A program made the position numbers and the translations under genes. From Huiozyma naganishii CBS 8797 (Eukaryota; Ascomycota; Saccharomycetes; Saccharomycetales; Saccharomycetaceae), in assembly GCF_000348985.1 (NCBI RefSeq), contig NC_035925.1, positions 434,001 to 498,000 of the forward strand: DNA of 64,000 bases. The letters run 5' to 3'. Positions 1,804 through 48,648 of the stretch are shown here, piece after piece; within the stretch, counting starts at the first letter, position 1, and the number at the start of each line of letters is the position of its first letter. Under the pieces are notes generated by a model. It saw nothing but the letters and a program-made list of their open reading frames with translations, searched no databases and was not told where the DNA came from.

Positions 1804-3333
1804 ATGACCCTTTTTAGTAAGCTAAGAGGTCAGTCCAGAAACATCAGATACCCTCGTTGTTTTTACTCTACACAGATGCAGCAAAACGTGAGGCCAGAAG
1901 CGGACAAGTTGTTACAGGACATAGCGACGTATGTCCACTCGAAGCCAATTGATTCCTCACTGGCTCTGAAGACCGCAAAGCTCTGTCTATTGGACACGCT
2001 TGGGTGCGGTCTTGCCGCTTTGAAATTCGACCAACCACGGCAGATCATCGAGCCCATTACATCAACTCTGGGGAAGATCCCCGGCGGCACTAGAGTGCTC
2101 GGAACTAAATTTGAGATGGACCCAGTTAACGGTGCGTTTGCACTGGGGACACTGATCAGATGGCTGGATTTCAACGATTGCTGGCTAGCTGCTGAATGGG
2201 GCCACCCTTCCGACAATCTGGGAGGGATCCTTTCCGTGGCCGATTTCGTCAACAGAGCGGGGACAAGCCCCAATGGTCGGAAATGGACCGTCAGGGATGT
2301 CTTGGAGGCGATGGTAAAGGCGCACGAAATCCAGGGAGTTCTGGCGTTGGACAATTCGTTCAACTCTCACGGACTCGACCATGTAGTGTTGGTTAAAGTG
2401 GCCACCGCGAGCGTCGTCTCCAAACTGTTGGGCCTTACAAGTGAACAAACTATGGAGTGTGTTTCACAGGCCTGGGTGGACGGTCAAAGCTTGAGGACTT
2501 ACCGCCATGCACCAAATACCGGGTCCAGGAAATCGTGGGCTGCTGGGGATGCATGTTCGAGAGCTGTCAAATTGGCGTACCTGGTGAAACAAGGTAACGT
2601 TGGTTTGATTCCCTCCGTTCTATCGGCACAGACATGGGGTTTTTATGACGTCTTGAATGGCGGTGAGCCGTTCAAATTTACCCAGAGAGATTCGTTTGAG
2701 TCTTACGTCATGGAAAACGTCCTCTTCAAGATTTCATTCCCAGCAGAATTCCATGCGCAAACAGCGGTGGAATGCTCCATCAAGGCTCACAGTATCTTGA
2801 AACAGTTGGGGAAGACTGCTGCAGATATCAAATCGGTAAGAATAAGAACCCAAGACGCAGCGATGAGAATTATTGACAAACAGGGCCCACTATACAACTA
2901 CGCTGATAGAGACCACTGCATCCAGTACATGTCTGCTGTACCACTTATCCATGGTAGGCTCCAGGCTAACGACTACATGGATTCTGTCGCAGAAGACCCT
3001 CGGATCGACGAATTGAGAGCAAAGATGTTTTGCGTCCGCGACGAACAGTTTACACTGGACTACCATGACCCAGAGAAAAGATCTATCGCAAACGCTCTCC
3101 GGATAGAATTGAACGACGGCACTGTTTTGGATGAGATTGTAGTCGAATACCCTGTTGGCCACCGCCGCAGAAGAGAGGAGGGGATCCCATTGCTAATGTC
3201 TAAATTCGAAAACCATCTGAACGATCACTTCACAGCAGAACCTGAACGTGTCCAGAAAATCTTAGAACTGGCTCAAAGTGAGAAGCTACTGGATACCACG
3301 GCGGACGAGTTCGTAGACTTGTTCTGGAACTGA
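1804..3333 (+). CDS. PDH1: 2-methylcitrate dehydratase, mitochondrial (MmgE/PrpD family)
   Basis: Dehydrates 2-methylcitrate to 2-methyl-cis-aconitate, the step after methylcitrate synthase in propionate breakdown. The protein matches yeast Pdh1 along its length, with the PrpD-family blocks RWLDFNDCWLAAEWGHPSDN, DGQSLRTYRHAPNTGSRKSW, KISFPAEFHAQTAVE and a C-terminal VEYPVGHRRRREEGIPLL. The ATG at 1804 is preferred (509 residues); the upstream in-frame ATG at 1735 lies in a TATA-like tract. From 1804 the N-terminus is basic and Ser/Arg-rich (MTLFSKLRGQSRNIRYPRCF), suitable as a mitochondrial presequence. It follows CIT3 on the same strand, and the two probably act in one pathway. Confidence 0.95.
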   Translation: MTLFSKLRGQSRNIRYPRCFYSTQMQQNVRPEADKLLQDIATYVHSKPIDSSLALKTAKLCLLDTLGCGLAALKFDQPRQIIEPITSTLGKIPGGTRVLGTKFEMDPVNGAFALGTLIRWLDFNDCWLAAEWGHPSDNLGGILSVADFVNRAGTSPNGRKWTVRDVLEAMVKAHEIQGVLALDNSFNSHGLDHVVLVKVATASVVSKLLGLTSEQTMECVSQAWVDGQSLRTYRHAPNTGSRKSWAAGDACSRAVKLAYLVKQGNVGLIPSVLSAQTWGFYDVLNGGEPFKFTQRDSFESYVMENVLFKISFPAEFHAQTAVECSIKAHSILKQLGKTAADIKSVRIRTQDAAMRIIDKQGPLYNYADRDHCIQYMSAVPLIHGRLQANDYMDSVAEDPRIDELRAKMFCVRDEQFTLDYHDPEKRSIANALRIELNDGTVLDEIVVEYPVGHRRRREEGIPLLMSKFENHLNDHFTAEPERVQKILELAQSEKLLDTTADEFVDLFWN

Positions 3334-3508
3334 ATCAACACCAACCTACGTACATACATATCCATATATATATCTATCCACAATCCATATTCTTTACTTG
3401 CAAGTGTTTTGCAATTCACATAATGAAGAAAAGAAAAAAAAATTTGAAAGCGTCCAACTGCGACCTTTGCGATCATCCCAACAGTTCTCGAGTGAAGGGA
3501 TACCACCA

Positions 3509-6196
3509 ATGAGCGGCTCTGCACTGGGCAGTAACCCAATTGCGAAGAGGGAGGACGAACAGGAGTCCAAGGGGGCTTCAACTTCAAAACTCTTCAGTGA
3601 TCTGATCGAATCTTCTGGGACTCTACCCACAACGTCATCTGAATTGGGATCTATTCAACTCTCAATCAATGAGATCAACAGACGTACCAAAGAAATGAGG
3701 GCACACACCCACGTTGCTGCGAACCGTGATCACACGAAGGCGCATTACTTGTTGGCTGGTAGTGGACTGGCATTTGATGATGTCGACACTTCGTTGCAGA
3801 ATCTACAACGCGTCGGACAGAATGGCAGCTCTTTGGGTGGGGCACGTGAAAGAGACGGGAAAGCCTCGGCTTCTACTACGGAGATTGATAGTTATTTGAA
3901 ATTGAAGAAGGACGAAAACATTTTGACCTCCATTGAGTTAGTGTTATCGAATGCTGCTAAAGATTTCGACACTTTTGTCACATCTAATTTGAACCTAGAC
4001 TGGGAACAGAGGAAGAAAGTTGTGAGAGAAAACTTCGGTATACTTATCAACCAGAACTCGAAGGGGGAACTTCAGAATCACACGTCCTCGGTTGATGCTC
4101 AACCGCCCTCCCTCAAAAAATTGTGGAATGCCAATGGCTCTCTCAAAAATAATACCACCCCCAACAACATTGCCCGGATTCTAAGCGATGATGATAACTT
4201 ACCTAAATTTAACGTCAACGAACATCACATGGTCAGAGCGAAGTTTGAGGGATACGGAGAAGTTATTCACAGGTTCAACAACGCAAGACAGGCACGCGCC
4301 AAATTTCCATTACACCAGGAATTTATCCGTCTGTTGAATAGTTCTGGCGATAATAAAAACATTCAATTGCTTCAAAGCTGGAGGATTTTAGAAATTGCCG
4401 ACAAGAGTAAAATGAAGAACACTAACGCTGAGATTATCAACAACTCGAAGCACACTTTACAGTCTCAATTTCTGGAACTCGTCGCTTCCATGTATGAAAA
4501 GAAAATGGATGAGGGATTACCAACTAATATCAATAAGATGAAGTCATTTATTGATTCAACTTTGAAGAACCTTGCTGACAATACCTGGAAGATCGCCAAC
4601 CTAACTATAGTTAACAATGTGCCAGTTTGGGCGCTTATTTTCTACCTACTGAGGGCAGGGTTGAACGAGGAAGCGTTGGAAGTCGCTGTTAGCAACAAGT
4701 CGAGCTTCAAGAAGGTCGAACAGTCCTTTTTGGGTTACTTCAAGGCTTACATCCAATCCAAAGACAATAAGTTGCCTGTGGAATTCTCGACCAGGCTGCA
4801 TACAGAATACAACCAACACATTAAAAACTCGCTCAACGGAGATCCCTTTAGAATGGCTGTTTACAAAATTATTGGTAGGTGCGATTTGACAAGGAAGAAT
4901 ATTTCTGCTGTCACTCTATACATGGAAGACTGGCTATGGATGCACTTCATGCTTATTAAGGAGGAGTGTGTGGACCCCAATGACCCGGTTTATGAAAGAT
5001 ACACACTAGAGGATTTCCAAAGCATTATCTTGTCCCATGGACCCTCCAAATTCAAAAACTCTTATCTACAAATTTTGATTCTGAGTGGGTTATTTGAGTT
5101 GGCAGTTGAATACGCATATTCAATCAATGAAATAGACGCTGTACACTTGGCCATCGAGCTGGCAAACCAGAAACTACTGAGAATAAGTACCGACCAACCA
5201 AGCGTAAATCCATCCACGGGCGAACGATTTAAATTCGTGAGTATCAACGCTGAAACGAACGCTACGCAGCTCAATTATGCGAAGGTCATTGCGTCTTACA
5301 CAAGATCGTTCAAGTTTTCCGATCCAAGGATTGCTACCGAATATTTGATTTTGATCGGATTAGTGGAGACTCCAACAGAGATTGAATTATGCCACGAAGC
5401 TTTGAGAGAGCTAGTCTTGGAAACCAAAGAGTTCAGTATACTGTTGGGTAAAATTAACAGAGACGGGTCGAGAATCCCCGGGGTCATTGAAGAGAGACAA
5501 CCGTTACTCCATCTGAATAACGAGAAGGAGTATCTTAGAACGATTACTGAACAAGCTGCTCACAGGGCTGAAGAGGATGGCAGAATATATGATAGCTTGC
5601 TGCTGTATCAACTATCAGAGGAGTACGACATTGTTATCACGCTGATCAACGGGCTATTGAGTGACGTTTTGAGCAACTCTGATCTGTCTGAGAACTTATT
5701 CTGGAACGACGACACAAGCGAGTCGAATCCAATCTTGCTAGCTGAGAGGTTGATCGACATTTATTTGGGCAACGTCGAAATCTCACAACTGATTTCCAAC
5801 AAGAACCAAGAGACGTGTTTGCTGCTTTTGCAGCTTGTGAAGATCAGGAAACTGTTTATCTCGCAGCAATGGCAGATCACATTACAGGAGCTTGCCTCTT
5901 TAGAGCTGTTGCCACTCAAAGACGATGCCTCTATCAGAAAGAGGGCTGAAGATTTCAACTCTTTGAACCCCAATGTGATAAAATGCGTGCCCAACTTGCT
6001 TGTGATGAGCATGACCAGTATTTCTAAAGAGATTCGGTTGCTGCGCAGCAGTGTTTATCAGACAACAGTGAAGGACCAACAGATATCAGCTCTCAAGACA
6101 GTTGCCAAAAACCTGATGGTATATGCCGGTATGATTCAATACAAGATGCCGAGGGAAACGTATAGCACTCTTATTGCGCTCGACGTCGCACTATAA
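3509..6196 (+). CDS. NIC96: nucleoporin of the inner ring, Nup93/Nic96 family
   Basis: Scaffold nucleoporin of the nuclear pore inner ring; its N-terminal coiled coil anchors the Nsp1-Nup57-Nup49 channel complex. About 895 residues from the ATG at 3509, against 839 in S. cerevisiae. The open frame extends 37 codons further up to 3398, but that stretch has no family similarity. Recognisable blocks are SSELGSIQLSINEINRR near the N-terminus, HYLLAGSGLAFDDVD, the central VEQSFLGYFKAYIQSKDNKLPVE, VTLYMEDWLWMHFMLIKEE, LCHEALRELVLETKEF, RDGSRIPGVIEERQPLL, and the terminal MIQYKMPRETYSTLI. The mostly helical C-terminal two thirds is the Nic96 domain. It is convergent with YPI1, with about 150 bases between them. 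Confidence 0.96.
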   Translation: MSGSALGSNPIAKREDEQESKGASTSKLFSDLIESSGTLPTTSSELGSIQLSINEINRRTKEMRAHTHVAANRDHTKAHYLLAGSGLAFDDVDTSLQNLQRVGQNGSSLGGARERDGKASASTTEIDSYLKLKKDENILTSIELVLSNAAKDFDTFVTSNLNLDWEQRKKVVRENFGILINQNSKGELQNHTSSVDAQPPSLKKLWNANGSLKNNTTPNNIARILSDDDNLPKFNVNEHHMVRAKFEGYGEVIHRFNNARQARAKFPLHQEFIRLLNSSGDNKNIQLLQSWRILEIADKSKMKNTNAEIINNSKHTLQSQFLELVASMYEKKMDEGLPTNINKMKSFIDSTLKNLADNTWKIANLTIVNNVPVWALIFYLLRAGLNEEALEVAVSNKSSFKKVEQSFLGYFKAYIQSKDNKLPVEFSTRLHTEYNQHIKNSLNGDPFRMAVYKIIGRCDLTRKNISAVTLYMEDWLWMHFMLIKEECVDPNDPVYERYTLEDFQSIILSHGPSKFKNSYLQILILSGLFELAVEYAYSINEIDAVHLAIELANQKLLRISTDQPSVNPSTGERFKFVSINAETNATQLNYAKVIASYTRSFKFSDPRIATEYLILIGLVETPTEIELCHEALRELVLETKEFSILLGKINRDGSRIPGVIEERQPLLHLNNEKEYLRTITEQAAHRAEEDGRIYDSLLLYQLSEEYDIVITLINGLLSDVLSNSDLSENLFWNDDTSESNPILLAERLIDIYLGNVEISQLISNKNQETCLLLLQLVKIRKLFISQQWQITLQELASLELLPLKDDASIRKRAEDFNSLNPNVIKCVPNLLVMSMTSISKEIRLLRSSVYQTTVKDQQISALKTVAKNLMVYAGMIQYKMPRETYSTLIALDVAL

Positions 6197-6342
6197 CGAC
6201 CGCAACAAACGACAGAAGAACAAAAAATTTGAACTTGAACCATCCCATGTGTATATAAGTTATGTACTGGGACAGGGAACCATGACCATTCGATCGATCC
6301 TCCCTACTCCCATCCCCCTCCGCCTCAACTTACCACTTTTAA

Positions 6343-6783
6343 CTACAAACGCCTTTGAATCTGAATATGCTTGTAATCCGGTTGTACTTCGTAAGCGTTG
6401 GGCTCTGCATCCGCAGCTTGCAACTTCTCCTTCCTACGAGCAATCCGGCGCTGCCTCCTCTGGTTCTTGTTCAACCCCTCATCGTTGTCGGACTCACTTG
6501 AAGAATCGGAGGAACTTGACCCCTCCTCGTGCTCATGCTCCTCGTGATTGTGCCCGACACACTCGTCCTCGTCCTGAGGGTGGTAAATACAGCATATCTT
6601 CGTCTTCTTCCTGTCGAGGTGCTCGTTATCTACAACGTCCTGCTCCCATTTGACGTTGTGCCGTGCCGCAGTAGACCCGCTCTTCTGCTCCTGTTTTGCC
6701 TTCTGATCAGCGCGTAACTTCAAAACGGGGCGCACAACGGTCTCCGTCTGCGACCCCTGTACTGTCTCTGCCGGACGGTCCAT
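6343..6783 (-). CDS. YPI1: type 1 protein phosphatase inhibitor/regulator
   Basis: Small regulator of the PP1 phosphatase Glc7, the yeast counterpart of inhibitor-3, acting mainly in the nucleus. It has 146 residues from the ATG at 6783; an in-frame ATG 15 codons upstream (6828) seems less likely. The family core [14 protein letters not shown] is present with its PP1-docking VKW, followed by [16 protein letters not shown]. After that come a His/acidic/Ser-rich tract, a basic RRQRRIARR segment and the conserved NAYEVQPDY. It is divergent from RPN11 with a shared promoter of about 200 bases, as in YFR003C-YFR004W. Confidence 0.94.
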
Positions 6784-6979
6784 TATCACAGACAAGTGGA
6801 GAGCTGTTCCGACTACGATGCTCCCCAAGATGCCAGTAACACCACCTTCTGGGCCTCCCCTTCTTCAAGATTTGATCGAAAATTTGAAATATATTTAAAT
6901 TTGAACAGTTCGAGGTTCTTTAAGAGGCGAGTGGTTTCAGTGGCGAACAGTGGGCAACGAACAAAGGAGCAACGGCGCG

Positions 6980-7900
6980 ATGGAGAGACTACAGCGGCTG
7001 ATGATGAACGGGAAGGTTGGAGCCGTCGATGCGGAGAAGGACGACACGAAGGAGACCGTTTGGATCTCGTCGATTGCTCTACTGAAGATGCTGAAGCACG
7101 GGCGTGCCGGTGTGCCGATGGAAGTCATGGGACTGATGCTGGGTGAGTTCATAGATGAGTACACGATCCAGGTAGTGGATGTGTTTGCCATGCCGCAGTC
7201 CGGGACCGGTGTCTCTGTCGAGGCTGTGGACGATGTGTTCCAAGCGAAGATGATGGATATGTTGAAGCAGACAGGCAGGGACCAGATGGTTGTTGGGTGG
7301 TACCATTCGCATCCTGGGTTCGGTTGCTGGCTGTCTTCCGTGGATGTGAACACTCAGAAGTCCTTTGAGCAGCTGAACAGCAGGGCCGTCGCTGTTGTGG
7401 TGGACCCAATTCAGTCCGTGAAGGGTAAAGTTGTCATCGACGCCTTCAGACTGATCGACACTACAGCTTTGATCAACAACCAGGAACCCAGACAGACCAC
7501 GTCGAACGCCGGTCTGATGAACAAGGCGAACATCCAAGCTCTGATTCATGGGCTCAATAGGCACTATTACTCCCTAAATATAGACTACATGCAGACGCCG
7601 GCGGAGGTTAAAATGCTGATGAACGTGCACAAGGAGCAATGGCAGTCCGGGTTGAAGATGTACGACTACGAGGCGAAGGAGGAGAAGAACCTTGCCGCGA
7701 CGAGGAGAATGGTGGAGATAGCAGAGCAGTACTCGAAGAGAATAGAGGAGGAGAAAGAGCTGACGGAGGATCAACTCAAGACCCGGTACGTCGGGAGACA
7801 GGATCCCAAGAAGCACTTGGCGGAGACCGCGGAGACCGCGCTGGATGATAACATTGTCTCGATATTGACCTCCAGTGTCAACGCAGTCGCAATTAAATGA
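6980..7900 (+). CDS. RPN11: 26S proteasome lid deubiquitinase (JAMM metalloprotease)
   Basis: Zinc-dependent deubiquitinase of the 19S lid that removes ubiquitin chains as substrates enter the proteasome. The JAMM motif is intact: [14 protein letters not shown] gives zinc ligands His109, His111 and Asp122 when the start is the ATG at 6980, the same numbering as in S. cerevisiae. The insertion after the motif (NTQKSFEQL) and the C-terminal [12 protein letters not shown] block are conserved. The protein has 306 residues, the usual length. An in-frame ATG ten codons upstream (6950) is not conserved. I saw no perfect Rpn4 site (GGTGGCAAA) in the short promoter. It is convergent with SAD1. Confidence 0.98.
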
Positions 7901-43424: not shown

Positions 43425-44699
43425 TTATGTAGGCTGGTTTGATACCTTCTCTTCTTTGTTACTACTTTCCGATTCATTGTGAGGAGATTTATGTTCCTCT
43501 AATTTATCTAAACTACTTTCGGTGCTTGCTTCCTCCTTTAAACTATCACTAATTTCGTTTGGCTCCGTTTTATCTTTCGCCTCCTTCAACACGTCCTTTT
43601 TTGAAGACTCTGGCTCTTCTTTCACAGGCGTTGAAGACAATCCTAATTTTCCCAACTTTTCTGAAATCTCAATAGCCTCGGGTTTTTCGTTGTCACTTTC
43701 GTCTTTGTTTATAGTCAACTTCTTCATCTCCGACATGACTTCAGAGATTTCTTTCTTGGTATCAATTTGTTTAATTTCAAACTCATTACACAACTTCTTC
43801 AATTTTTCACTCCAGCCCATTTCTTCTGCCAATCTTTGGGCAGCGTCATCAGTACTGCCCTTGAACATTAAATCGGTTTTGCGTTTTTCCTGAGCAAACG
43901 AACCAACCATCTCTTTGTTAATTAGTATTCTACGGATTTTTGCCGGGACCTCGTGTGGGAGAGATGCAAATGGATAAACCGCTAACGAAGTACCTGCGAC
44001 AATGACAATATATTCACTCGCTGATGATTTGTCCTCTAAGGTTTCGAGATCGTCTTCCCATGTATCGAAGAATCTGGCCGGCAGATTCTCACCAAAAAAC
44101 ACAATATTCGGTTTTATCAGGCTTTTGCAGTGATCGCATCGCGCAAAATCGATGCTATCTTCAGTCTTAAAATCCAGTTTTTCTTTAAAATAGTTCATCG
44201 GGAACTGTTTCTTACACTTAATGCAATGGTTCGAAGCAAAATTCCCGTGTGCTTCAACAATGTATTCTGCATTAATACCTGCTTGCGCTTCCAATGTGTC
44301 AATATTCTGCGTGTATATTCTGCGTAATCGATTCTCATCCTGAAATAATTTCATGAAGAAGTGAAACTTTGAAGGTTTGAACTTACCAGGGTAGAGTTCC
44401 TTAGCCAAAGTGTAGAATGGTTTGGGATTTTCTTCAAAGAAATCGATATCAAACACTGCCTCTGCAAATGGTAGATTCAATTTAGCAAGGTTTCTATAAA
44501 GGCCTGTCTCCGGCGACCTGAAATCAGGGATACCACAAGATGTTGAAATACCGGCACCAACCATAAATATTACGTTAGCACCAGATGTTTTTCGAAGCAA
44601 AAAGCCTAACTTCTTAACTGCTTTCAAATTTGCATCATCGTGTTGAACCAGGTACTTCATGTACTTGTCTCTCTTTTCTTCTGGGCTCAATGTACTCAT
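43425..44699 (-). CDS. HST2: NAD-dependent deacetylase, Sir2 family (Hst2)
   Basis: Cytoplasmic/nuclear sirtuin removing acetyl groups from lysines, including histone H4 K16. The protein has 424 residues against 357 in S. cerevisiae. The NAD site GAGISTSCGIPDFRSP (from Gly48), TQNID at 130-134, catalytic His151 in EAHGNF, zinc Cys159/162/188/191 and GENLP are all present. The C-terminus beyond about residue 310 is a long Glu/Lys/Ser-rich tail, more extended than usual. The start codon lies about 18 bases from the putative 3' LTR end of the upstream retroelement, which has the same orientation. This is unusual for its promoter. Confidence 0.94.
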   Translation of the reverse strand: MSTLSPEEKRDKYMKYLVQHDDANLKAVKKLGFLLRKTSGANVIFMVGAGISTSCGIPDFRSPETGLYRNLAKLNLPFAEAVFDIDFFEENPKPFYTLAKELYPGKFKPSKFHFFMKLFQDENRLRRIYTQNIDTLEAQAGINAEYIVEAHGNFASNHCIKCKKQFPMNYFKEKLDFKTEDSIDFARCDHCKSLIKPNIVFFGENLPARFFDTWEDDLETLEDKSSASEYIVIVAGTSLAVYPFASLPHEVPAKIRRILINKEMVGSFAQEKRKTDLMFKGSTDDAAQRLAEEMGWSEKLKKLCNEFEIKQIDTKKEISEVMSEMKKLTINKDESDNEKPEAIEISEKLGKLGLSSTPVKEEPESSKKDVLKEAKDKTEPNEISDSLKEEASTESSLDKLEEHKSPHNESESSNKEEKVSNQPT

Positions 44700-44754
44700 A
44701 TTTTCTTACAATAATTTGTTATTCTTCTTACCTTCTACATAACAGCTCAGCTAC

Positions 44755-44778
44755 GAGAGACTAGCACACTAGTCTCTC
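44755..44778. repeat. perfect 10-base-arm inverted repeat in the presumed 3' LTR
   Basis: GAGAGACTAG, CACA, CTAGTCTCTC: a perfect hairpin lying 56-79 bases upstream of the HST2 start. Confidence 0.9.
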
Positions 44779-44792
44779 TTTCTATACGCGCG

Positions 44793-44869
44793 GTTCAGAA
44801 GTAATCACAACCTGCGTCTAGTGAAGACTTTTATGTCACTCTTTACGAAGCTTCACTTGATGCTCAACA
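44793..44869 (-). repeat. 3' LTR, segment shared with the 5' LTR
   Basis: This 77-base stretch is 75/77 identical to 48224-48300. It starts TGTTGAGC on the minus strand, directly after a polypurine tract (GTAGGGGGGTA on the minus strand, 44870-44880). The LTR probably continues left to a TGTT/AACA end at 44717, giving about 153 bases. Confidence 0.85.
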
Positions 44870-44989
44870 TACCCCCCTACTTCTGCAATCCGCAAACCAT
44901 CGCATCTCTAAACTACTCAGGTTCTTACACGTTGTTTAATCGATGCCAGATGTAGCCAACCGCTATGATCATTTAGTTTGCATTTCTTA

Positions 44990-45400
44990 CAACAATGTAC
45001 CAGTCCGCTGCATCGTGCTAGCAGACTGAGTACCAGGGTGATACTTGATCACCCCCTCAAACCGAAGCCTTTTGACCTTCGGTAGTCTATAGAAAGCCGT
45101 ATTTGATACTATACTGTAGACGGTGTGATTATTCTGACTCTTCCAGAATCCACAGCTCACTTTATTCATCATAGTGAGGTTCTGCTATATCATGTTCATA
45201 GCATGTATACGAGGATGACCCTTGATCTCCCCCTCGATCCGAGATACACAATGCTCGGTAATCCACAGCAAGTCATATTGGATACTCTACCGTAGATGGT
45301 GTGGAAGCACTGACTTCATAGGCTCCATCCCTCACTCTATCCAACTTAGTAAGGTTGTGCTAGAAACGCTTCGTAGCACGGACCTGGAAATGACACCCAG
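44990..45400 (-). repeat. imperfect tandem duplication in the element's 3' region
   Basis: Two units of about 175 bases (about 45005-45185 and 45186-45361) align clearly (for example TGATCACCCCCTC / TGATCTCCCCCTC and CTGTAGACGGTGTG / CCGTAGATGGTGTG). The start of a third follows near 45370. The sequence has decayed and carries no intact frame. Confidence 0.65.
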
Positions 45401-45654
45401 TCATCTCCGGCACATGGTGATCGTCTCCCGAGGGGGTACAGAACTTGCCGTTGCTGTTCCAGATTTGGTAGCGCTGCTGGTTCCTGATCTGGGCAGAGTG
45501 ACCGGCTTCGGTTGTTTTGAGTACCCATACCTTTCCCGATGTAAAAGCTCCAGTGAGCCTCTTGAATAACCATCTTACTACCATTTCTAAGGTATGTCGA
45601 TTTCAGCGTTACTCTTTAATAACCATATTCAAACCTCCCCTTGAGGTATGGCGG

Positions 45655-45842
45655 TCTATGATAAATCTTCGTGTTCAGCCTTTGTTGACGATAAACATAC
45701 CACCATTCTTATCTTCGTTGAACTCCACGTAACTGCACCGCCAGCCATAAACATCACCTACCCCCCAGTAGAATAAGGGAGATCCAGGGATGACTCCGAA
45801 GTAGCATCTGTGTTCACGATAATATTAATAGGAGCCCCCTTT
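45655..45842 (-). pseudogene. copia-type RNase H fragment
   Basis: The minus-strand translation gives the typical copia RNase H core: a D-S/T block ending YSTGG, then an in-frame stop, then VMFMAGGAVTWSSTK and CLSSTKAEHEDLS, the counterpart of the STSG / ISWSSKKQ / SSTEAEY motifs. The stop codon and further downstream stops make it a pseudogene. Confidence 0.8.
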
Positions 45843-45910
45843 TGATACTGCATACTGACGTGTAGTGTAAAGGTACTTTTAGCAGGAGATAAATGAAGTT
45901 CTTACCACAT

Positions 45911-46179
45911 TTAATCTGTAAGATAGTTCCTCTTCATTATCGCTCTGTCACTGGAACCTTTGCTGTCACTGCCACGCTGAGTACGGGCACCTAAAGATTT
46001 ATCCCTTGCTCTTCTTTCAACCTCTAAATACTCCTTCTCGATCCTCCTGTACGCTTTTATCAGATTGTCCAATTGGTAACTCAGTCGCTTCTCCACTGGC
46101 TTACCACCGTGCACTAGCACCACACGGTCCCTGATAACCATCTCACGCCCCAGTTGCATACTTAGATCCTTACATTCCA
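45911..46179 (-). pseudogene. LCP5: LCP5 fragment, second part (Sas10/Utp3/C1D domain)
   Basis: Open from ECKD to a stop at 45911. The block RDRVVLVHGGKPVEKRLSYQ continuing LDNLIKAYRRIEKEYLEVE matches the Sas10/Utp3/C1D domain, closest to yeast Lcp5, a U3 snoRNP-associated ribosome biogenesis factor. It resumes where the first part stops, after the inserted LST8 piece, with only about five codons of LCP5 lost. The intact gene is not in this window. Confidence 0.8.
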
Positions 46180-46268
46180 CCTATAGCAACATGTGGATTA
46201 AGGAGACCTTTTCAACTGGCTTTCCTTGCTCCCCTTCGCTTGTGAATGCTAAAATGATCAAACGAAAA

Positions 46269-46490
46269 TCAACCGTCGTTTAATGCAACGCAAACAACAT
46301 CCTTGTGGTGACCATCATACTGTCTTACAACTTTCCTCGTGGGCAGATCCCATAGTCTGACGTAATGGCCTGATGACGCTGTCAAGAGGTATCCGCTATT
46401 TGCGCTGAACGCGCAGTCCCAGACCCACTTGTGATGAACATTCAAAGTAGATTCGAATTTGAAGTTGTTATCAATGGACCAAACTCTTGT
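46269..46490 (-). pseudogene. LST8: LST8 C-terminal fragment (WD40)
   Basis: About 74 codons equal to the last WD40 repeats of Lst8, the Gbeta-like subunit of TORC1 and TORC2: RVWSIDN, HHKWVWDCAFSANSGYLLTA, HYVRLWDLPTRKVVRQY and the true C-terminal CVALND followed by the stop. It lies inside the LCP5 fragment in the same orientation. Roughly 90 bases after its stop (46180-46268) may be LST8 3' UTR; their origin is not established. Confidence 0.9.
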
Positions 46491-46520
46491 GACCACATTC
46501 ACTTTCCCCTACCGCACTAA

Positions 46521-46724
46521 TAGCGGCGGGTTAACATAGGACATCAGAGAACCGTTCTTCAAAGTCAGCAACGAGTGTTTCTCCAACTTGTCCTCACCCC
46601 AAACACCTAGCGTCTTGGAAACCTTGCGCTTCGAGCAGTCGGTCGAATAAAACTCCTTCAACTGCGTGAGCGACCTCGGAGTCGCCTCCAAAGAGTCATT
46701 AATAGCCTCCAACGTACTATTGAA
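46521..46724 (-). pseudogene. LCP5: LCP5 fragment, first part (N-terminus)
   Basis: FNSTLEAINDSLEATPRSLT to KHSLLTLKNGSLMSYVN corresponds to about residues 3-75 of Lcp5. It is fused in frame to the preceding reverse transcriptase start, with no initiator Met at the junction. It is broken after YVN by a stop and the LST8 insertion. Confidence 0.8.
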
Positions 46725-46841
46725 CTGATAGGTGTCATGTTCCCGAAATATGTTCAGTTTTTTCTAACATGCTGCTTTCCAAAGTTCCTCATCTCTCCTT
46801 GAGAAGGCTTCTCGGGCATCTTTGACAACTGATAAGAAAGT
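46725..46841 (-). pseudogene. copia-type reverse transcriptase, N-terminal fragment
   Basis: The minus-strand frame SVVKDAREAFSRRDEELWKA, then AC, a TAG stop, and KKLNIFREHDTYQ, is the usual N-terminal edge of copia-type RT (the WKAAMDxELxxLxxNxTW region). It is one frame off the pol ORF ending at 46876. It joins LCP5 sequence directly after Tyr-Gln. Confidence 0.8.
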
Positions 46842-46875
46842 GCATTCTTAATATTTTCCATCTGCACCTCATCAA

Positions 46876-47325
46876 TCAATTAAACTTGGTTGGAATTGCA
46901 CGCGTCTGTTGTACCTCTGGAAGTTGTACGTTACGTTTCTTGATGGGTTTCAAATGCCCAATCTCACTAACGTTCTTTCCAGACACATTTTCTGTCATCA
47001 CATCATTCATGTGATTTGTCCGCGGTGCTGCTGTTCGTAAGCAGTCAATTATACCCTCTTGCTTCTTGACCCGGTCTACAGTTTCCTTTATCTCTTTAAT
47101 ATTTTTAGGAAAACCTGGGTATGTTTTCGCAACATCAGCAAGAATGTTATTCAATGCTTCTACCGGATTCATGCAGCCTGTACTACCTCCTGTATCTGTA
47201 GCAGACCTTTTGCTACAGATGTCATCTCGGGCGATAGAGAACATTTCGCCCTCTATGTTAGGGTTGTTCAAATCGTCCCCAAACACACTCTTCGGTGCTT
47301 CGCCCGGTGGGTCGAACAGATTCAA
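46876..47325 (-). pseudogene. retrotransposon pol segment, unassigned (integrase C-terminus/linker position)
   Basis: A 149-codon open frame overlapping the end of the gag-protease frame by 4 bases. It is rich in Asn/Asp/Lys and has no recognisable integrase HHCC or DDE motif. By position it would be the integrase C-terminal or linker region, so an internal deletion has probably removed the integrase core. Confidence 0.55.
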
Positions 47326-48239
47326 TTTCTCATTCTCCCCATGACGAAATATTCAGAAAGTCCCCCTGACTTGTCTTCTCCCATAGAAGTGTTAACATCT
47401 GGTACCAGTTGGAATATTTCCTGCGAGGCAGATACTCCCCGTAACGTTGAAATAGCATATGATTGTACATCATGGATGTAAGAATAGTTCTTCAAGGGAA
47501 AGTTCAATTCTTCAAATTTCACTTGGTTACTGGAGTATACCTTGCCTGTACAGGCACCAAAGGTTCGATATACTCTCTTCCGCGAATTTCCCTTGCCTGT
47601 GCAGGGATCAAAGGATCGATATGCTCTCTTCTGCGAGTTTCCGCGGTGTGATTTTAAAGTATAAAGCCCATTTCTTTGCTTAGCCATCGTCGACCTAACG
47701 CCATCTTGGGTTATCATCTGTAGAGGAATTTTTCCAAATATGAAACGACCCTTTGACGTCGCCGTTGCCGCTGAAATGGATATCAACTTGAAATCAACAC
47801 CAGGAACATAAGCCACATTGTGTAAGAGGAAATTCTTGACCTTAACTTTTCCAAATCCTTCAATGGTAGCATTTCCAACAATACCTGTCAATTCCTCATG
47901 CTTGCCCATCTTAAGCTCACTAAACATACTCGCGTCATTGCATACATGAATGGAGCTTCCGCTATCAACTACCAATTCTCCCTTGGGGAGTGATGTTGAT
48001 GCATACATTGATGCATAAAAGCTTTGTAGACCGCCTATTTTTTCATTCGATCTAAAAGTATTAGCATCCGGATAGTCCCGTTTATACTTAACGCACTTAC
48101 TAATCGGATGGTTTTCTCCACAGTGGAAACACTTGATCTGAGAGTGATAAGTGCTCCTTTTAGCGGCCATGGCCACCTCGCCATGTTCCGCTTTCCCTTC
48201 TCCAAGATCTTGGAGTAAATCGTGTTCAGAAGTAATCAC
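47322..48239 (-). pseudogene. retrotransposon gag C-terminus and aspartic protease
   Basis: The 305-codon frame contains a CCHC zinc knuckle (CFHCGENHPISKC, CX2CX4HX4C) and then a retropepsin active site (ELVVDSGSSIHVCND). It begins inside the truncated 5' LTR, so the gag N-terminus is missing. Two in-frame 51-base tandem units follow the protease. There is no integrase zinc finger. Confidence 0.85.
47541..47642 (-). repeat. two tandem 51-base in-frame units in the pol frame
   Basis: Units 47541-47591 and 47592-47642 match at 44 of 51 positions. Each encodes 17 residues with KRxYRxFxxCTGK, so the duplication keeps the reading frame. Confidence 0.85.
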
Positions 48240-48300
48240 AACCTGCGTCTAGTGAAGACTTTTACGTCACTCTTTACGAAGCTTCACTTGACGCTCAACA
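48224..48300 (-). repeat. truncated 5' LTR
   Basis: This is the first 77 bases of the LTR, starting TGTTGAGC at 48300, joined directly to the middle of gag. The rest of the LTR, the primer-binding site and the gag start are deleted. Confidence 0.85.
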
Positions 48301-48574
48301 CATTGGATAGTTCCATTATGAAGGTGAATGCGTAAGTGTCTATCTGACGTTCTAATTACCTTGCTCATTGCGGGGCAGAAAATTTCAAAGTTCCATTTTA
48401 AAATTTAAAGAGGTTTCAAAAGGTAATTGCGCAAAAAAAAACTAGCAAGAGCTCTCGTTGCTATCCTTCATTTCGAATGTTGTGTTTGTAGAGCTGGAAG
48501 AAATAGTCGCTTACACTCACTATTGCAGCGCTCCATTACACTCACAAAAAATTATAAATCGTGATTACAAAAAA

Positions 48575-48648
48575 CGACCTCGGTGAGGATTGAACTCACG
48601 ATCTTGCGATTAACAGTCGCACGCCTTAACCAGCTTGGCCACGAAGTC
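48575..48648 (-). tRNA. tRNA-Asn (GUU)
   Basis: A 74-base cloverleaf on the minus strand with anticodon GTT in ACTGTTAATC. It has a closed acceptor stem (GACTTCG/CGAGGTC with one T-G pair), normal A and B boxes and an oligo-T terminator (A6 on the plus strand before 48575). It is nearly the same as S. cerevisiae tRNA-Asn and has no intron. Confidence 0.95.

Follow-up and report, generated by a model that had tools for sequence, protein, structure and literature searches.

A Ty1/copia relic at HST2 of Kazachstania (Huiozyma) naganishii carries decayed pieces of the host genes LCP5 and LST8, one inside the other, in place of its reverse transcriptase

At the start of the sirtuin gene HST2 on contig 4 of Kazachstania (Huiozyma) naganishii CBS 8797 lies a decayed Ty1/copia element (44641-48300, minus strand) in which the region of the reverse transcriptase (RT) is taken up by pieces of two host genes, LCP5 and, inside the LCP5 sequence, LST8. 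All positions refer to the window, that is the whole stretch of 64,000 nucleotides that was analysed. The best explanation, to which we assign a probability of roughly 0.7, is that LCP5 mRNA plus LST8 took the place of the RT segment when the element was reverse transcribed in virus-like particles, and that the product then integrated in HST2. The components of the locus, from the 5′ to the 3′ side of the element, are as follows.

48301-48316, minus strand: displaced original HST2 start, ATGGAACTATCCAATG (the joined flanks are in frame with HST2)
48301-48305, no strand: 5-bp flanking repeat CATTG on the 5′ side of the element, with four of five bases the same as 44636-44640
48224-48300, minus strand: 5′ LTR remnant, the first 77 bp of the 229-bp LTR, joined to mid-gag (75/77 identical to the 3′ LTR)
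47623-48223, minus strand: gag zinc-knuckle to protease part (89% DNA identity to contig 11, 426012-426611; Pol_BBD, E 8.1e-12)
47533-47634, minus strand: 51-bp tandem repeat at the junction of protease and integrase end, within the open frame (copies differ at 9/51)
46880-47579, minus strand: integrase C-terminal end and linker to RT (protein matches to other copias)
46728-46837, minus strand: RT start (stub), with a stop and frame changes (weak match, 46814-46752)
46493-46727, minus strand: captured LCP5, codons 3 to ~80 (sense alignment to own gene)
46178-46490, minus strand: captured LST8, comprising its 73 final codons, the stop (46271-46269) and some 90 nt of 3′ UTR (sense alignment)
~45900-46183, minus strand: captured LCP5 again, codons ~80 to ~171, overlapping the first part by 4 bp (GTGG)
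45655-45899, minus strand: copia RNase H region with several stops (match within 45772-45671)
45205-45654, minus strand: 3′ pol-side sequence common to one other relic (80% to contig 11, 293759-294223)
44870-44880, minus strand: presumed polypurine tract, GTAGGGGGGTA, named from its position and composition
44641-44869, minus strand: 3′ LTR, 229 bp, TGTTGA...TCAACA, holding the Gag start ATG (LTR family comparison)
44636-44640, no strand: 5-bp flanking repeat CATCG on the 3′ side (4/5 against CATTG)
43425-44699, minus strand: HST2, with its start codon and first ~20 codons in the 3′ LTR (SIR2, E 1.1e-56)

The element is a relic of the Ty1/copia (Pseudoviridae) type, not a complete copy, and consists of the 3′ LTR, the polypurine tract, the 5′ LTR remnant, gag/protease, the integrase end, the RT stub and RNase H; protease, integrase, RT and RNase H follow one another on the minus strand in the order expected for Ty1/copia. 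Since the 3′ LTR, the polypurine tract and the 5-bp flanks (4/5) are all present, the whole is regarded as one integrated unit. The first-pass annotation had placed the chimera between element ends, and these ends exist, but the layout is more rearranged than it supposed: the 77-bp 5′ LTR is fused to mid-gag, at a point located by comparison with the gag copies on contigs 2, 11 and 9, and the core of the integrase is missing. The latter is absent at the tandem repeat, where the contig 11 relic runs into integrase-core-like sequence. The gag/protease part sits in a 308-codon open frame (48248-47322) with one frame change at its end (~47340), and the integrase end and linker form a second open frame of 158 codons in another frame. 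Within this second region, 47579-47427 is 37-38% identical to open copia frames (E 4.9e-7 and 9.3e-6) and 47187-46888 is 67% identical to the contig 9 relic, while no match to 47426-47188 was found among the other copias of this genome. The RT stub weakly resembles another copia of the same genome (43% over 21 residues, E 0.01), and a search of the genome for RVT_2 gave seven places, none of them inside the window, the copia RT domain being lost here. The RNase H that had been proposed to follow LCP5 is indeed found, with 53% identity over 34 residues to a contig 10 copia (E 1.8e-4). Elsewhere in the genome, locus L048 on contig 12 holds a 1597-codon uninterrupted copia-type frame with RT (2871-7661); searches of the genome DNA with parts of the window element gave no DNA-level match to it. 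A tRNA-Asn gene (48575-48648, minus strand) lies 275 bp past the 5′ end of the element, which is thus downstream of it.

The LTR belongs to a family with 12 other genomic places where 160 or more of the 170 LTR bases used as query align at 92-98% identity. Seven other members were examined, four of which (L035, L036, L037 and L040, the last after shifting the LTR end by 2 bases) have exact 5-bp flanks and one (L038) has flanks agreeing at 4/5, with none found in the remaining two. In the window, the 3′ LTR passes straight into HST2, whose product matches the yeast Hst2 chain of a solved structure (E 2.9e-108), and the Gag start of the LTR now reads as the HST2 start codon and first ~20 residues. 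With the element removed, the joined flanks (the empty site) read MELSNDANLKAVKK, in frame with HST2. The element has thus displaced the original start of HST2 and the LTR, as read from the sequence, is predicted to supply the start codon. The HST2 product in the protein database has 411 residues and begins MKYLVQHDDANLKA, from an ATG that likewise lies within the LTR. In six of the seven other LTRs, the Gag start reads MS(T/E)LS...EE(K)RD(K/R)Y, much like that of the window LTR, and in the seventh it is kept despite a small deletion. On contig 2, the Gag start of an LTR of the same family opens into a 445-codon gag/protease frame (L034, 4144-5478), which runs from one LTR into a second, inverted one.

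A DNA search of the genome with 45655-46841 returned four matches, namely the query itself, two stretches of LCP5 (contig 4, 367233-367515, 86%, and 367512-367737, 85%) and one of LST8 (contig 8, 302254-302557, 82%), and no second copy of the chimera. The first-pass annotation was right to name LCP5 and LST8 as the host genes: the contig 4 gene (KNAG_0D02160) matches the S. cerevisiae Lcp5 chain of a solved structure (E 4.5e-114) and the contig 8 gene matches an LST8 structure chain (E 1.3e-199). Aligned to these sources, of which one place per gene was found, the pieces are 80-87% identical, in other words 13-20% different. The search of the same genome for further host-gene chimeras with four copia-relic regions gave 28, 47, 27 and 66 matches beyond self. 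With Pfam, the pieces taken alone gave a clear WD40 match for LST8 (E 1.8e-9), a weak Sas10 match below the cut-off for the first LCP5 part (E 0.041) and nothing relevant for the second.

The Ty-LCP5-LST8-LCP5-Ty arrangement in one orientation, as first proposed, is borne out by the sense alignments of all three pieces together with the LTR and the polypurine tract. The end of LST8 was captured with its stop (73 codons, against ~75 claimed), and 46180-46268 does continue as LST8 3′ UTR. The two LCP5 parts form one continuous source stretch (contig 4, 367233-367737), interrupted only once, where the parts overlap by 4 bp, so that LCP5 does resume after LST8; it does so in another frame. Likewise, the reading of RT running in frame into about codon 3 of LCP5 stands as far as the frame goes, given that the RT stub (after its stop), the first LCP5 part and LST8 share one frame until the LST8 stop, but the stub itself carries a stop and frame changes. 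A functional fusion protein was considered and rejected, because a TAG lies in this shared frame, inside LCP5, and the LCP5 piece has two small indels that cancel. Between matching points of two other copias of the genome, RT and its connection measure 877 and 879 nt, against 828 nt for the host segment, which argues that the latter replaced the RT region and was not added to the element.

According to the preferred reading, the locus is a decayed and internally rearranged Ty1/copia element. Its RT-coding segment would have been swapped, during reverse transcription in virus-like particles, for a copy of host LCP5 mRNA, and a piece of LST8 mRNA (coding end and 3′ UTR) would have been placed inside the LCP5 sequence; the LTR-bounded product would then have integrated with a 5-bp target duplication at HST2 codons 5-6. 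The pieces of LCP5 and LST8 run in the same sense as the element, and each stays within the putative transcript bounds of its own gene. The RNA templates and the steps inside particles are inferred; no intron was seen in the LCP5 and LST8 frames of the genome and RNA and DNA templates are therefore indistinguishable here, and no poly(A) was found at the LST8 end.

The captured DNA and the LTRs give different ages. For the fragment branch, the neutral length comes to no more than ~0.11 per site, and the tandem repeat, if a true duplication, gives ~0.10 per lineage from its nine differences, three of which are at one end. The LTR ends differ at only 2/77; in a comparison with 14 sequences of the family, the 3′ LTR has a base other than the most frequent one at 9/229 positions (five shared with some member and four private) and the 5′ remnant at 1/77, from which an LTR age of ~0.016 was obtained. 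The captured DNA thus appears roughly six times as old as the LTRs. Had capture and insertion been simultaneous and the LTRs left untouched, one would expect the 77 bp to show 9 to 15 differences; with fragment-branch lengths from 0.067 to 0.111, the observed value has P between 5e-3 and 5e-5. Barring conversion of the LTRs, this mismatch makes capture and the insertion into HST2 separate events. On one view the chimera was still being copied and moved well after it had formed; on the other, both LTRs underwent later conversion.

The first of these possibilities, which we hold tentatively and at somewhat less than even odds, is a mobile Ty lineage carrying host genes, moved in trans after loss of the integrase core and RT and only recently arrived in HST2, whose gag/protease frame would have stayed open while LCP5, LST8 and the repeat at the integrase end decayed. 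It would be a yeast counterpart of a transducing retrovirus. The 927-nt gag/protease frame is free of stops and frameshifts; at the rate of the insert (taken as 4-6 events per 729 nt), 5-8 of them should have accumulated. This favours a lineage still under selection. The dN/dS values against other relics (0.31 to 0.48 for gag/protease and 0.61 for the integrase end) indicate weak or no constraint and count, weakly, against selection, as the compared copies may also have decayed. The second possibility, compatible with either mechanism of capture and somewhat unlikely, is that the chimera has been in HST2 since its formation and that its LTRs look young through conversion by younger ones. The flanks that differ at one of five bases lean towards an older insertion, the 12 closely similar LTR places are potential donors, the genome search yielded no second chimera, and the dN/dS of the integrase end against the contig 9 relic (the 0.61 above) is like that of unselected sequence. 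Conversion would however be needed both in the 3′ LTR, with its four private changes in 229, and in the 5′ remnant, with one change in 77, and it leaves the uninterrupted gag/protease frame to be accounted for.

The joins bear on how the host pieces entered. No clear overlap is seen between LTR and gag; the join of RT stub and LCP5 is ambiguous (CAGTT against CAATT in the source); two bases (TC) between LCP5 and LST8 fit neither source; and at the return from LST8 to LCP5 the sources share at most ~1 base. Microhomology, proposed at first pass as a feature to check at the junctions, is accordingly weak, being limited to an imperfect CAxTT at the RT-LCP5 join and ~0-1 base at three readable joins, a count that leaves aside the final join, unreadable without the Ty parent sequence. 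Both borders of the LST8 piece carry the LCP5 bases GTGG. An integrase-type insertion of LST8 would be expected to leave the 5-bp duplication of this LTR family; four bases are shared here, and the fifth differs from the source in both copies. Under a uniform assumption a free jump would return to within 4 nt of its departure in LCP5 with a chance of ~0.8%. The single LCP5 site, the 4-bp repeat and this low chance lead us to favour the insertion of LST8 into LCP5 sequence, either in the particle or in a resident copy, over two independent jumps. Of the two routes offered at first pass, at least four template switches or nested cDNA insertion, switches are thus the less simple and nesting fits better.

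The same features could also be produced at the DNA level, through repair of a broken resident Ty copy with stray LCP5 and LST8 DNA or cDNA, inserted as a chain; the 4-bp repeat flanking LST8 would then be a filled-in staggered break. Insertion of LST8 at one LCP5 point and the scarcity of microhomology agree with such patching, and capture of Ty1 cDNA at breaks, and of retrosequences at rearrangements, has been described in S. cerevisiae (PMC7175516). As an account of the whole chimera it is nevertheless improbable, at roughly one chance in five, considering that each piece runs in sense (for the two together, 1 in 4 by chance) and that the host segment takes the place of a pol segment of similar length; it could apply to the LST8 step alone.

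The decay of the pieces points to dead copies of the resident genes. Pooled over the three coding pieces, there are 48 synonymous changes in 215.6 sites and 52 nonsynonymous in 504.4, giving dS 0.264, dN 0.111 and dN/dS 0.42 (0.58, 0.36 and 0.35 per piece) when transitions are weighted five-fold. Unweighted sites (pS 0.27, 0.29 and 0.34, and pN 0.11, 0.08 and 0.09, for the first LCP5 part, LST8 and the second LCP5 part) would lower the ratio and leave some room for selected divergence before capture. In 34 changed LCP5 codons, the residue of the own gene is the commoner among 20 outgroup proteins (picked from the 119 others listed among the 181 found) in 26 cases and that of the fragment in five, with three ties; for LST8, all 14 changed codons are, by eye, at residues that the own gene shares with the Lst8 of S. 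cerevisiae and K. marxianus. Nonsynonymous divergence does not differ between LCP5 and LST8 pieces (38/349.6 against 14/154.9; Fisher P 0.63). Over 45900-46727 the differences are clustered, with one in some 30-nt windows and nine or ten in others (chi-square P 0.0014 for 23 windows, without three short end windows and three in the 3′ UTR); the parent gene may have converted parts of the pieces.

A foreign origin of the host pieces, by transfer or introgression from another species or a diverged population, is improbable to the point of roughly one chance in seventeen. The 13-20% divergence is large, and the ratio of 0.42 is slightly under the ~0.5 to 0.6 that reasoning, as opposed to simulation, leads one to expect of a copy dead since the split when compared with its living parent; but it is closer to that situation than to two living genes, and the nearest other LCP5 among the proteins listed has only 62% protein identity. 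An assembly or cloning artefact typically looks like a join of unrelated genes but would match its sources at ~100%, and with pieces that differ by 13-20% and carry a stop and indels it is hardly credible.

Capture of host genes by LTR elements is established, mainly in plants and animals. Maize Bs1 is an LTR element that carries parts of three host genes, all of them incomplete, and whose chimeric gene is said to be transcribed and translated (PMC13317346); the window chimera likewise carries partial segments of several host genes, but these come from two genes, one inside the other, are all decayed and are found in a yeast. In LTR-mediated retroposition, reverse transcription switches template between the RNA of an LTR element and a packaged mRNA, with several switches and partial mRNAs allowed; it is described in plants and animals, and microsimilarity is given as what enables the switch (PMC5408686). 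It too leaves a host mRNA segment between element parts and LTRs; microsimilarity is weak in the window chimera. A tripartite LINE chimera of Magnaporthe grisea is reported to unite three transcripts by double template jumps between flanking target repeats (PMC2104539), and it is alike in these fused transcripts and repeats but relies on LINE machinery, joins two retrotransposons with a noncoding RNA and shows no element-host-host-host-element nesting. Also related are the Ty1 retrosequences of S. cerevisiae, host RNAs copied into the genome (PMC7175516) by a budding-yeast copia enzyme. The window chimera differs from them as a natural fossil within an integrated element. Most S. cerevisiae Ty1 retrosequences were seen in experiments. 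A limited search of open-licence literature found no natural yeast example of a host-gene chimera in an LTR element, and no open-licence paper that brings together LCP5, LST8 and a retrotransposon. The earlier statement that no example had been described holds at most for yeast, in view of Bs1, LTR-mediated retroposition and the Ty1 retrosequences; the apparent novelty lies in a natural case from budding yeast in which one host gene is nested in another and RT is replaced.

The locus preserves in legible form, and with clocks of its own, the capture of host genes by an LTR retrotransposon of yeast, and the enzymology of capture is testable in laboratory strains of the same yeast group. The clocks provided by the host pieces, the tandem repeat and the LTRs bear on whether captured genes travel with a Ty lineage, while the HST2 site presents an LTR in place of the start of a conserved sirtuin gene.
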